A stretch of 64,000 nucleotides of DNA from Granulicella sp. 5B5 (GTDB taxonomy: Bacteria; Acidobacteriota; Terriglobia; Terriglobales; Acidobacteriaceae): contig NZ_CP046444.1 of NCBI RefSeq assembly GCF_014083945.1, positions 1,116,001 through 1,180,000 on the forward strand. The letters are read 5' to 3'. The first letter of the stretch is position 1, and the number at the start of each line of letters is the position of its first letter. The position numbers and the translations under genes were made by a program. The notes under the pieces are model-generated. The model was not told where the DNA came from. It worked only from the letters and a program-made list of their open reading frames with translations, and made no database searches. Shown here piece after piece: positions 5,235 through 52,538 of the stretch.

Positions 5235-5288
5235 ACTTGTCATCCTGAGCGCAGCGAAAGATCTGTTTCTACTGGGCCGTCACAAATC

Positions 5289-5357
5289 AGGTACCCCGAG
5301 GCTTCAGCCTCGGGTCTCATAACTCCCTTCAGACGAAAGGGGCTTTAGCCCCGGAAC
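5289..5357 (+). repeat. Twin-hairpin element R1 (CTTCAG/CTTTAG)
   Basis: Hairpin 1 is CCCGAGGC-TTCA-GCCTCGGG (5295-5314) and hairpin 2 is GGGGCT-TT-AGCCCC (5339-5352), joined by a TCTCATA spacer. This is the clearest copy of the family. A degenerate TGTCATCCTGAGCGCAGCG repeat precedes it at 5236-5265. Confidence 0.9.
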
Positions 5358-5748: not shown

Positions 5749-5870
5749 GAAAGCTCTGAGCAAGTGTCTTATTTTGAAGGGGCGGGGCTTCAGTCCCGCC
5801 GTAAAGCCTCCGAAATCAATGCGGCTTTAGCCGCTGAGGGAACGCTGGCACACTTGTTCAGAGCTTCCCT
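5749..5870 (+). mobile_element. MITE-like element with imperfect terminal inverted repeats, enclosing twin-hairpin R2
   Basis: The left end GGAAAGCTCTGAGCAAGTGT (from 5750) is the near-exact inverse of the right end ACACTTGTTCAGAGCTTCC (about 5851-5869). Between them lies a twin-hairpin core: GGCGGG-GCTTCAGT-CCCGCC (5781-5800) and GCGGCT-TT-AGCCGC (5821-5834). The left end recurs immediately after the tail-sheath stop at 47370. No coding capacity and no certain target duplication. Confidence 0.6.
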
Positions 5871-23744: not shown

Positions 23745-23810
23745 CTCTACGCCCTCCCATCCTCGACCCTGAAGCCCACGAATCCTCGACTCTGAAGCAT
23801 GCGAGCCGGC

Positions 23811-23880
23811 TTTGAAGGGTACGAGCTTCAGCTCGTACATCTCAGCCACAAAATCTGAAGGGGCTTTAGCCCCGGAGGGC
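23811..23880 (+). repeat. Twin-hairpin element R3
   Basis: GTACGAGC-TTCA-GCTCGTAC-type hairpin (23819-23838) and GGGGCT-TT-AGCCCC (23860-23873). Lies in the gap between the muconolactone-isomerase-like gene and marR. Confidence 0.88.
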
Positions 23881-29633: not shown

Positions 29634-29735
29634 CGCGCGTTGTCTATAGCGGCACCTCTAGCTCCCGGCTTAACAGTGCTCCGACTTCCATGCGGTCGCG
29701 TTCCTCCACGGCTTAGGCAAATGTCACAATAGTTC

Positions 29736-31550
29736 ATGCGCAGCAGCAATCAACCGAGCCATCTCAAGCCGCTGCTCATCATCCCTTTCTTCCCCCTGCT
29801 CGTCCTTCATCCGCTCCTCGTGCACGGCATCTCCTGCGGGCAGGACCTCAGCTTCCACATCCAAAGCTGGCTCGACGCCGCAACACAACTCAGTCATTGG
29901 CAGTACCCACACTGGGCCTTCTCTCCCGCATGGAACGCCGGCGAGCCACGCTTCCTCTTCTACCCACCGCTCTCCTGGCTGCTCGGCGCGGGCCTCATCA
30001 GCATCTTCTCTCCGTCAGCCGCACCCATCGCCTACATCTATCTCTGCCTCTGCGCTGCAGGCTTTGCGATGCACCACCTCGCCCGCCACTACGTCTCACC
30101 GAACGCCGCCCTTCTTGCCGCAGCTTTCTATCTCGCAAACCCCTACCTCCTCTTCTGCGCCTTCGAGCGCACCGCCTTCGCCGAACTCCTCGCCGCAGCA
30201 TGGATACCTCTGCTTCTTCTCGCAGTCCTGCGCGAACGCCCCACCGTCCGCAGTATCGCAATCCCCATCGCCCTGCTCTGGCTCACCAACGCCCCCGCAG
30301 CCGTCATGGGCTGCTACACCTTCGCCCTGTTCGCAACGCTTCGCGTGGCCCTTTCTCTAATGCCTCAGCAGCCCGCGACCTCGGCGACAATCGGGTATCC
30401 CGAGGCTTCAGCCTCGGGTCTCATATCTCCCGCAGAGGAGAGGGGCTTTAGCCCCGGAGGTATGCACTCCCTCCGCCTCGCCGCCACCTACATCGCCGGC
30501 ACACTCCTCGGCCTCGCACTCCCCGCGTACTACCTCATCCCCGCCGCCTATGAGCGCCGCTACGTACAGATCGCCATGGCGATCATCCCCAGCCTGCGCG
30601 TACAGAACAACTTCCTCTTCACCCGCACCGCCGATGCCGCCCACAACGCCGTCAACCACACCGCCAGCTCTCTCGCGCTCACACTGCTACTCCTCACCCT
30701 CGCAACACTCATCGCACTCTTCGCGCTCCGCCGCAACACCACGTGGCACCTCATCTACCTCGCGATCACCACCCTTGCCATCGCACTTCTCCTCACGCCC
30801 ATCTCGCTCCAACTCTGGCTGCACCTGCCCAATCTCCAATACCTCCAATTCCCCTGGCGACTCCTCACCATCCTCTCCGCCATCCTCGCCTTCGCCCTCG
30901 CTCTTCTCCTCGACACAACCCCATTTATACCAACCAGGCACGCTCTATCCTCTATCCTCTATTCTCTATCCCCTGTCTTTCTCTGCCTCGCTCTCACCGT
31001 CATCGGCTACCGCCTTTACGCGCAGGTATGTGACCAGCCCGATCGCCCCACCACCATCGCCGCGCTTTACAACACCCACCACGGCGCCCCACCCACCGAC
31101 GAGTACACACCCACCGCCGCCGACAACGACGTCCTCCGCACCGACAACCCCGGCTACTGGCTCGCCTCTACTCGCAACGCGCCTGCATCCAACACCACAC
31201 CCACCGCCACCGAGCTCAACCCCTCCATCGACACCGACGACACGCCGATCCCCGAAGCGCAAACCCTTTCCACGCCCGCTCCCACACATCTCGTCCTACA
31301 TCTCTCGCATCCCCAGACGCTCATCCTCAACCTGCGCGACTACCCCTCCTGGCGCATCGTCCGCAACGGCCTCATGCTCGACGCCCGCCTACAACGGGAC
31401 GACGGCCTCCTCGCCGTCGCCCTCCCCGCAGGCGCTTCCACCCTCGACATCCGCTGGCATGACACCCCCGACCAGACGCTCGGCCTCATCCTCAGCCTCT
31501 GCGCCATGCTGCTCCTCGTCGTCTCTGCCTTCAGCAAAAACAGCGTCTAA
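29736..31550 (+). CDS. Multi-spanning membrane protein, PTPS-related/GT-C-like, with an embedded repeat
   Basis: Protein of 604 residues with about 10-12 membrane helices. The N-terminus HGISCGQDLSFHIQSW followed by HWAFSPAWNAGEPRFLFYPP fits the 6-pyruvoyl-tetrahydropterin-synthase-related (PF10131-type) membrane family, thought to be GT-C-like transferases. The C-terminal 130 residues are soluble and beta-rich. Two dispersed repeats are translated in frame: twin-hairpin R4 gives residues about 219-243 (GYPEASASGLISPAEERG), between helices, and a heptamer array gives about 403-414 in a helix. Substrate unknown. Confidence 0.7.
   Translation: MRSSNQPSHLKPLLIIPFFPLLVLHPLLVHGISCGQDLSFHIQSWLDAATQLSHWQYPHWAFSPAWNAGEPRFLFYPPLSWLLGAGLISIFSPSAAPIAYIYLCLCAAGFAMHHLARHYVSPNAALLAAAFYLANPYLLFCAFERTAFAELLAAAWIPLLLLAVLRERPTVRSIAIPIALLWLTNAPAAVMGCYTFALFATLRVALSLMPQQPATSATIGYPEASASGLISPAEERGFSPGGMHSLRLAATYIAGTLLGLALPAYYLIPAAYERRYVQIAMAIIPSLRVQNNFLFTRTADAAHNAVNHTASSLALTLLLLTLATLIALFALRRNTTWHLIYLAITTLAIALLLTPISLQLWLHLPNLQYLQFPWRLLTILSAILAFALALLLDTTPFIPTRHALSSILYSLSPVFLCLALTVIGYRLYAQVCDQPDRPTTIAALYNTHHGAPPTDEYTPTAADNDVLRTDNPGYWLASTRNAPASNTTPTATELNPSIDTDDTPIPEAQTLSTPAPTHLVLHLSHPQTLILNLRDYPSWRIVRNGLMLDARLQRDDGLLAVALPAGASTLDIRWHDTPDQTLGLILSLCAMLLLVVSAFSKNSV
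30392..30466 (+). repeat. Twin-hairpin element R4 inside a coding region
   Basis: CCCGAGGC-TTCA-GCCTCGGG (30399-30418) and GGGGCT-TT-AGCCCC (30442-30455). The length keeps the host frame open. Confidence 0.92.
30944..30978 (+). repeat. Heptamer array 5 inside a coding region
   Basis: TCTATCC TCTATCC TCTATTC TCTATCC CCTG, translated as part of a membrane helix (ALSSILYSLSPVF). Confidence 0.75.
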
Positions 31551-51095: not shown

Positions 51096-52538
51096 CTACA
51101 GCGCCTGCACCAGCTCCTTGAACACCCGCCCGCGGTGCTCATAGTTCTCAAACTGGTCGAAGCTCGCACACGCCGGTGCCAGCAACACCGTATCGCCCGC
51201 GACAGCAAGCTCCTCGGCCTTGGCCACCGCACGCTGCAGTGTCTCCGCATTCTCTATCTTCACGACTCCGGCCAGCTGCCGCTCAATCTTTTCTGCCGCT
51301 GAACCAATCGTGATAACCGTCTTCACCCTCTCGCGCAGCAGCGGCGCCAGCGTCGCATAATCCGAGTCTTTGTCCTTCCCCCCCAAAATCACATGCACTC
51401 CACCCGCAAACGCAGCAATCGCCTTCTCCGTCGCATCCACGTTCGTCGCCTTGGAGTCGTTGTAGTACTTCACTCCACGCACCTCGCGCACAAACTCCAG
51501 CCGGTGCTCCACAGCCTTGAAGCTCTTCACCGCGCCACGAATCACCTCACTCGACACACCTGCCAGCCGCGCCGCGCACACCGCCGCCAGCACGTTCTCC
51601 ACATTGTGCGCACCCGCCAGTGGCACCTCGCTCACCGGCATCACCGGCTCCGCAATAGCGCCTTCCTTCGCCACAAAAAGGATCGACTCGCCATGCACAA
51701 ACACACCCTGCTTGATCGGCCTCCGCGCACTGAACCAGTAAATCTGTGCCTTCGTCTTCGCAGCCACCATCTGCGCCGCCTTGTTCTCACCATTCAGCAC
51801 CAGAAAGTCATCTGCAGTCTGGTTCTCTGTAATCCGCGCCTTCGCCGTCGCATACGCTTCAAAGCTGCCATGCCGGTCCAGATGGTCCGGCGTAATATTC
51901 AGCACCAGCGCAATCCGCGGCTTGAACGTCTCAATCGTCTCCAGCTGAAAGCTAGAAACCTCCAGCACACTCCACACCGTTCCGCTTTGAAGGGGGCGGG
52001 CTTCAGCCCGTCCATCTTGGGGCGCTGAAAGAACTGGGGCTTCAGCCCCGGAGGGATTGTTACTCAGCGCCACGCTCTCCGCCACCATCGCCGTCACCGG
52101 CCTGCCGATGTTCCCACCCACCAGCGTCGGCCTCCCCGCCGCCTTCAGAATCTCGCCCACCAGCGAGGTCGTCGTAGTCTTCCCATTCGACCCCGTAATC
52201 GCAATAATCTCCCCTTGCAGATACTGCGCCCCAAGCTCCAGCTCACCAATAATCCGCATCCCCAGCGCCCGCACCTGCACCAGTTCCGGCGTCGAGCTCG
52301 GCACACCCGGGCTCACCACAATCAAATCCTGCCGACGAAACGTCAGCAGCCCATGGCTCCCCGCCTCCACCGAAAACCCCTGCTCCAGCAGGCTCGGCAG
52401 CTCCGCAATCAGCGTCGCTGGCCGAGCATCACTCACCGTCACCCGCGCCCCGCGTTCCTTCAAAAACTGCGCCGCCGCCAACCCACTCTTCCCCAGCCCC
52501 ACCACCAACACGCGTTTATTCTTTAGCTCAAGCATCAT
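51096..52538 (-). CDS. murD: UDP-MurNAc-L-Ala--D-Glu ligase MurD carrying an in-frame palindromic element
   Basis: 480 residues, about 25 more than usual. Rossmann start VLVVGLGKSGLAAA, ATP site AITGSNGKTTTTSLVGE, NITPDHLDRHGSF and the C-terminal KDKDSDYATL block are normal. Between the NIGRPVTAMVAESVAL segment and VWSVLEVSSFQLE there is an inserted NPSGAEAPVLSAPQDGRAEA stretch (residues about 160-185) that is the translation of twin-hairpin R7. It lies just before the conserved E-x-S-S-F-Q-L motif, in the central domain near where UDP-MurNAc-Ala is handled, so it must be tolerated as a surface loop. Confidence 0.93.
   Translation of the reverse strand: MMLELKNKRVLVVGLGKSGLAAAQFLKERGARVTVSDARPATLIAELPSLLEQGFSVEAGSHGLLTFRRQDLIVVSPGVPSSTPELVQVRALGMRIIGELELGAQYLQGEIIAITGSNGKTTTTSLVGEILKAAGRPTLVGGNIGRPVTAMVAESVALSNNPSGAEAPVLSAPQDGRAEARPLQSGTVWSVLEVSSFQLETIETFKPRIALVLNITPDHLDRHGSFEAYATAKARITENQTADDFLVLNGENKAAQMVAAKTKAQIYWFSARRPIKQGVFVHGESILFVAKEGAIAEPVMPVSEVPLAGAHNVENVLAAVCAARLAGVSSEVIRGAVKSFKAVEHRLEFVREVRGVKYYNDSKATNVDATEKAIAAFAGGVHVILGGKDKDSDYATLAPLLRERVKTVITIGSAAEKIERQLAGVVKIENAETLQRAVAKAEELAVAGDTVLLAPACASFDQFENYEHRGRVFKELVQAL
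51986..52058 (+). repeat. Twin-hairpin element R7 inside murD
   Basis: CGGGC-TTCA-GCCCG (51996-52010 region) and GGGGCT-TC-AGCCCC (52036-52049). Confidence 0.88.

Follow-up and report, generated by a model that had tools for sequence, protein, structure and literature searches.

Does the segment that directly precedes the conserved EVSSFQL motif in the MurD protein of Granulicella sp. 5B5 derive from a dispersed palindromic repeat, and how would such a repeat come to persist inside an essential gene? The murD gene (encoding UDP-N-acetylmuramoyl-L-alanine--D-glutamate ligase, 480 aa; NCBIfam TIGR01087, 448.6 bits) lies at positions 51096 to 52538 on the minus strand of the window, by which we mean the whole stretch of 64,000 nucleotides that was analyzed. 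The distance from GGNIG to EVSSFQL in its product is 47 residues versus 18 in most relatives, a net insert of 29 residues, about 25 of which are supplied by a 73-bp twin-hairpin element of the R1 family at 51984 to 52056 (minus strand), read in the murD frame. The element lies within the stretch that is left unmatched in alignments with insert-less relatives (MurD residues 157 to 187; 51978 to 52070, minus strand). A sequence-only reading had proposed a palindromic element at 51986 to 52058 that adds about 25 residues in frame; BLAST matches to dispersed copies, the open reading frame, and the presence of the peptide PSGAEAPVLSAPQDGRAEA in the product bear this out, with boundaries two bases away from those proposed. 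We consider it probable, at about 0.84, that the segment is a nonautonomous REP-like element of about 73 bp, whose copies in genes persist only if they are in frame, free of stop codons, and placed in a permissive loop.

The murD copy scores 81.5 bits with the covariance model of the family, a match by construction, since the model was built from 27 copies of which this is one. As an independent check, BLAST with an 82-bp murD stretch gave 44 matches genome-wide (self included; four loci are each split into two pieces), the best non-self match being 83% over 75 of the 82 bases (E = 2.6e-14). In the 3.93-Mb genome the model found at least 144 matches at E ≤ 1 and at least 124 at E < 0.01, both lower bounds given that 150 of 1811 candidates were scored; the 124 matches underlie all analyses of genes, frames, and orientation below. 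Copies are laid out as CCCTCC, a hairpin, a spacer of about 20 nt, a second hairpin, and CCCTTCAAAGC, and the consensus on the murD strand reads TCCCTCC-GGGGCTAAAGCCCC-about 20 variable nt-AYGGACGGGCTGAAGCCCGTCC-CCTTCAAAGC. Variants have an alternative second hairpin (TTCAGGGGCCTGAAGGCCCCTGCTCCCTCC) or an additional third one, and the spacers vary among copies, which is unusual for recent copying. Written as on the murD strand, the sequence of hairpin 1 is GGGGCTGAAGCCCC (52036 to 52049) and that of hairpin 2 GGACGGGCTGAAGCCCGCCC (51994 to 52013), with inverted repeat arms at 51994 to 52002 and 52005 to 52013. Folded as single-stranded DNA, the murD copy by itself does no better than its shuffles (z = -1.31; 20 of 200 shuffles equal it), and its minimum free energy structure contains the second hairpin only. 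The case for two hairpins, as first described, therefore rests on the family, in which the consensus and compensatory changes at 6 of 13 consensus pairs (27 copies) uphold both.

The insert is absent from 77 of the 80 MurDs of named genomes (the best 80 of 577 relatives), all of which cover the site, and the three exceptions (L061, L068 [Bryocella elongata], and L071) carry a different insert. Within the genus set, 26 of 28 genomes, our own (G000) included, cover the site and 22 are insert-free, the status of G026 being judged from match positions; G025, G002, and G027 have MurD inserts of a different kind. Those of G025 and G002 match exactly a second dispersed repeat, CTTCG-N4-9-CAGGATGACA, which has 5 and 9 matches in these two genomes, murD included, and 0 with the reversed control; the G027 insert does not match this pattern. 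One loop has thus been filled by different repeats in sister species. The exact sister-type pattern was not found in our own genome, which holds one match with 2 mismatches; in the window, a copy of this second repeat (TGTCATCCTGAGCGCAGCGAAAG on the plus strand), of the kind seen in the two sister murD genes, lies at 5238 to 5260. The idea that the murD spacer is a remnant of a sister species' repeat was rejected, as its alignment to the L061 and L068 inserts reached 11 and 12 points, against bests of 12 and 14 for other spacers.

These comparisons bear on whether the MurD segment is simply an ordinary lineage-specific loop that resembles the repeat by chance or through GC-rich convergence. 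The three nearest relatives are indeed also longer at this site, without the element, but the DNA-level match to dozens of copies, down to conserved hairpins and tails, refutes this explanation, and the occurrence of the element at the murD site in G000 alone among the genomes compared also speaks against it; we give it a negligible probability. Nor was the segment present in all Acidobacteriota MurDs and devoid of DNA likeness to intergenic repeats, the outcome that would have spoken against the sequence-only reading: most MurDs lack it, and the murD stretch has its 44 BLAST matches.

The two best PDB MurD alignments are interrupted at the position of the insert. In an AlphaFold2 model of MurD (44 sequences; mean pLDDT, 90.7), for which the top Foldseek matches were MurD structures, residues 168 to 179 fall below a pLDDT of 50, between a helix (148 to 160) and a strand (189 to 193), so that the insert seems to form an unstructured loop of an otherwise confidently predicted protein. 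In the Escherichia coli enzyme, this helix and strand presumably have their active-site ends on the far side, which would place the loop away from the substrate. The loop is presumed to be harmless. The suggestion that the element occupies a neutral surface loop fits this low-confidence segment and the fact that two sister genomes have the same loop filled by a repeat unrelated to the element.

The insertion in murD is real and is no lone case. For each of the 124 matches, codon usage was scored to the left and to the right, spanning frames were listed, and candidates were scanned with Pfam and NCBIfam. Seventeen copies, distributed over 16 genes, are read in frame and are either spanned or bracketed by matches to a family or homologue: murD, queA (two copies), asnS, metG, uvrA, nei2, moeA, hemD, ispE, and the genes for an asparaginase, an ABC exporter, an M20 amidohydrolase, a protoporphyrinogen oxidase, a CCA transferase, a DUF2252 protein, and an Lhr-like helicase. 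Codon usage alone supports four more (L002, L026, L240, and L192); the L002 copy lies in a GH20 gene, outside the Pfam-matched part, and L026, without a Pfam match, is by eye what we take to be a nagA-like gene. The total of in-frame copies is 21 of 124 (11 of 69 among matches of at least 45 bits), and the strict codon criterion by itself gives 11 of 124. Nine of the 17 family-supported copies score at least 45 bits; the other eight (26 to 45 bits) mostly have another second hairpin and are therefore family members in a wider sense. Twelve copies have two 180-nt flanks that are coding and without stops on one strand, and 11 of these 12 preserve an open frame, against an expectation of 1/3 (p = 4.7e-5). 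Left out of the intragenic count were L005, whose element lies close to the 3' end of a radical-SAM gene; L007 and L010, where it probably precedes the gene; L008, in which the frame is the same but interrupted by two stops; and L012, L015, L018, and L193, for which no family was found. Five further matches (G000:C1:1619247, 2968252, 3117149, 3185202, and 3887100) have a same-frame coding signal on both sides with a stop between or after, and could mark genes that the element has broken, or neighboring genes.

The family is nevertheless mostly extragenic, with 103 of the 124 matches not called in-frame intragenic, where genes around copies were called from codon usage and family matches rather than from a full annotation. 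In the window, copies at 23809 to 23880 (80.6 bits) and 5771 to 5841 (66.2 bits), both on the minus strand, lie outside coding frames by this criterion. The claim that all window copies other than that in murD are intergenic did not quite hold, as a match of 39.7 bits at 30394 to 30462 (minus strand) sits within an open frame at 29733 to 31547 (plus strand), with a coding signal to either side of the match (12.4 and 32.2) and no Pfam family. Forty loci were fetched from relatives (G002, G003, G004, G005, and G010), chosen for their high scores among the matches listed rather than at random. Nine of them have an in-frame copy, in genes for GlmS, MnmG (twice), ValS, MetG, HemD, a helicase, LeuS, and AlaS, and the same peptide is thereby found in GlmS, MnmG, ValS, MetG, LeuS, and AlaS.

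A comparison of murD, asnS, and queA with relatives shows sites that are empty or differently filled. For AsnS, the match is interrupted at the insert in 23 of 24 matching relatives, several of which retain a few extra residues; AsnS of G026 aligns from residue 395 and may hold a partial insert, and that of G008 has an unrelated insert including CHPERSAAESKG. For QueA, 23 of 26 matching relatives are interrupted at both inserts and G024 at the second only, while G025 and G006 align through the inserts with shorter, different segments. It is conceivable that the element is retained in genes for a function, as an mRNA hairpin, through translational pausing or regulation, or as a protein interaction loop, given that stem pairing is kept by compensatory changes, that several essential enzymes contain the element, and that the metG and hemD copies occupy apparently identical sites, judged by eye, in our genome and relatives (two species each). 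We regard such a function as unlikely: a transposase substrate would conserve its stems likewise, the inserts of murD, asnS, and queA are missing from most relatives, the murD and asnS loops are filled by unrelated repeats in sister species, and both the functions of the genes and the reading senses of the 21 in-frame copies (6 sense, 15 antisense) are mixed.

The reading frames of the copies themselves point to a filter acting on insertions. The 58 strong copies (at least 45 bits) not called intragenic have a mean of 1.97 open frames of 6, compared with 2.97 in Markov shuffles and 3.97 in random 73-mers from the window. Extragenic copies being stop-rich, the in-frame copies look like survivors of selection rather than the result of coding adaptation. 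The same figures disfavor the view that this mobile DNA has itself been adapted to translation, selected to be stop-free so as to colonize genes, which we hold to be very improbable even though the antisense peptide ALKGTGFSPS...GALAPEG is found repeatedly in many proteins and the Y1 reading frame of two transposase loci in relatives (L348 and L343) runs on, in the same frame as in murD, into the copy downstream of it (GGAEAPPLQ). On the reading that we prefer, a REP-like element subject to a selective filter, the element would be moved by a Y1 (RAYT-type) transposase and would enter at the replication fork; most insertions into genes would be purged, and survivors there would be those that keep the frame, bring in no stop codon, and fall in a permissive loop, such as that of MurD between helix 148-160 and strand 189-193.

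The family is widespread, with matches at E ≤ 0.001 in 24 of 28 genomes of the genus (none at this threshold in G014, G016, G017, and G021) and, in a family-level sample with 32 candidates scored per genome, at E ≤ 1e-4 in 133 of 150 genomes and 75 of 79 genera. In four relatives (G005, G011, G012, and G002; loci L342, L343, L344, and L348), an IS200-like Y1_Tnp gene lies between inverted copies, element(-)--Y1 gene--element(+), in units of 572 to 578 bp whose flanks score 48 to 83 bits; inverted copies around a Y1 gene are the RAYT/REPtron layout. Our own genome has three Pfam Y1_Tnp genes. L141 has no family match nearby, and the flanks of L142 and L143 (the latter at G000:C1:641850-645149) have weak inverted matches only (26.7 and 29.0 bits, and 18.8 and 14.5 bits, respectively). 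No Y1 gene adjoining strong copies was found in this genome, so the mover may have been lost or may be L142. Among the element-free genomes, G014 and G016 have a distant match to the L142 protein only (25 to 28% identity) and G017 and G021 none; there is likewise no such match in G007, G019, and G027 or in the element-poor G015 and G018, all of which bear the element and several of which are incomplete genomes. The element is probably moved by a Y1 tyrosine transposase of the RAYT type.

In their behavior, in frame in many unrelated genes and in several cases for essential enzymes, the copies resemble Rickettsia palindromic elements, as the sequence-only reading had supposed. We know of no link between Rickettsia palindromic elements and a transposase. 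The present family differs in host and in size. The Rickettsia elements are about 150 bp, compared with 73 bp here, and in the text available to us are likewise in-frame palindromes in unrelated genes that give a conserved peptide (PMC10969869). That no equivalent had been described in Acidobacteriota stands insofar as the open-licence literature, without supplements, yielded no translated REP-like elements in this phylum; the kind is not new, because intragenic REPs outside Rickettsia have been published. Di Nocera et al. (2013; PMC3733652) reported GTAG- and CGTC-tagged intragenic REPs in several phyla (Opitutus terrae, Thauera, Stenotrophomonas, Rickettsia conorii, and others) which, by the accessible part of that account, are like ours dispersed palindromes in named genes including uvrA and tRNA synthetases, encode 20 to 30 aa when dimeric, and occur as double insertions in one gene. 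Ours is a short palindromic repeat in many copies, as REPs are, but lacks their terminal unpaired GTAG or CGTC tag: its tails are CCCTCC and CCCTTCAAAGC, and the consensus has CGTC nowhere but in the stem of hairpin 2, where it is paired. In that same text, as far as available, Acidobacteria are named only for TIR-associated transposases, the TIRtrons/TIRYT of Koribacter versatilis, Granulicella mallensis, Terriglobus saanensis, and Acidobacterium capsulatum, in which, as here, a Y1 tyrosine transposase gene is bracketed by a repeat in inverted orientation that may also occur in dispersed form (PMC3733652). Intragenic copies do not figure in that description, with which we compared by description rather than by sequence, and it may partly cover the present family. 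The REPINs of Pseudomonas fluorescens, as portrayed in the portion of PMC3116915 available, share two hairpin units with a spacer and a link to a RAYT gene but are mostly inverted doublets of REPs located outside genes. Related work includes PMC6006769 and PMC12306157, each available in part.

In our genome, 123 of the 124 matches are oriented in line with the local GC skew, the single exception being the right-hand flank of transposase gene L142, and orientation along the chromosome falls into 20 runs, compared with 51 expected (0 of 20000 permutations as low). The local skew is very strong, about +/-0.27 in 3-kb stretches; a typical GC skew is about 2.5% in the accessible SkewDB text (PMC8941118). 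In our single contig, the skew changes sign many times (many inversions or assembly joins). Because dnaA (2139322 to 2140680; 2.139 Mb) lies near a minus-to-plus switch of the skew between 2.141 and 2.155 Mb, the G-rich strand was taken to be the leading one, which would put the murD sense of the element on the lagging-strand template. The agreement extends to relatives in 35 of 40 high-scoring loci, with 18/18 in the strongly skewed G005, 2/2 in G010, and 1/1 in G002, and is looser in the weakly skewed G003 (9/12) and G004 (5/7). Statistically, and with fork direction taken from GC skew, one strand is inserted relative to the fork as for IS200/IS605 elements, and the 123 of 124 agreement fits strand-specific insertion at replication forks. 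Mutation pressure was rejected as the source of the bias, as the copies run counter to the skew, being C-rich on the strand that is G-rich locally (consensus core, 14 G and 22 C). We lean, with some reserve, toward a RAYT-type family whose insertion has essentially a single orientation relative to replication, throughout the genome and in at least two species of the genus.

A partial precedent may lie in the tandem REP arrays of P. fluorescens, which run forward at about 2 Mb and in reverse at about 4 Mb; a family-wide strand rule for its REPINs was not seen in the available portion of that paper (PMC3116915), and the open-licence literature, without supplements, yielded no replication-strand rule for REPs. 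What stands out here is the unusually strict strand rule and the scale, in a real in-frame RAYT-type element that would be both translated and mobile. REP spread has been called poorly understood (PMC8266576, in the text available), and the 123 of 124 rule together with defined Y1 gene units offers a concrete, testable system for it. If insertion is one way, element orientation would be a readable record of fork direction and would give in vivo evidence for REP-type spread through single-stranded DNA of the lagging-strand template, and loops of essential proteins would be accidental landing sites common to several repeat families. The in-frame copies, which in this single bacterium affect at least 16 genes, with many housekeeping enzymes among the products, are relevant to annotation, to how lineage-specific protein loops arise, and to the selective filtering of insertions.

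Two minor observations concern other repeats within our genome. The hairpins flanking L143 (GAGACCCGA...TCGGGGTACC) resemble the matches at 5295 to 5352 and 30394 to 30462 of the window and possibly form a subfamily of their own. Other repeat-like peptides occur near copies, SSRPEAAGRSGETR in the L004 and L240 proteins and SSSGEPIRPEAKGSGYP in the L234 protein, and suggest that there are more translated repeat families.
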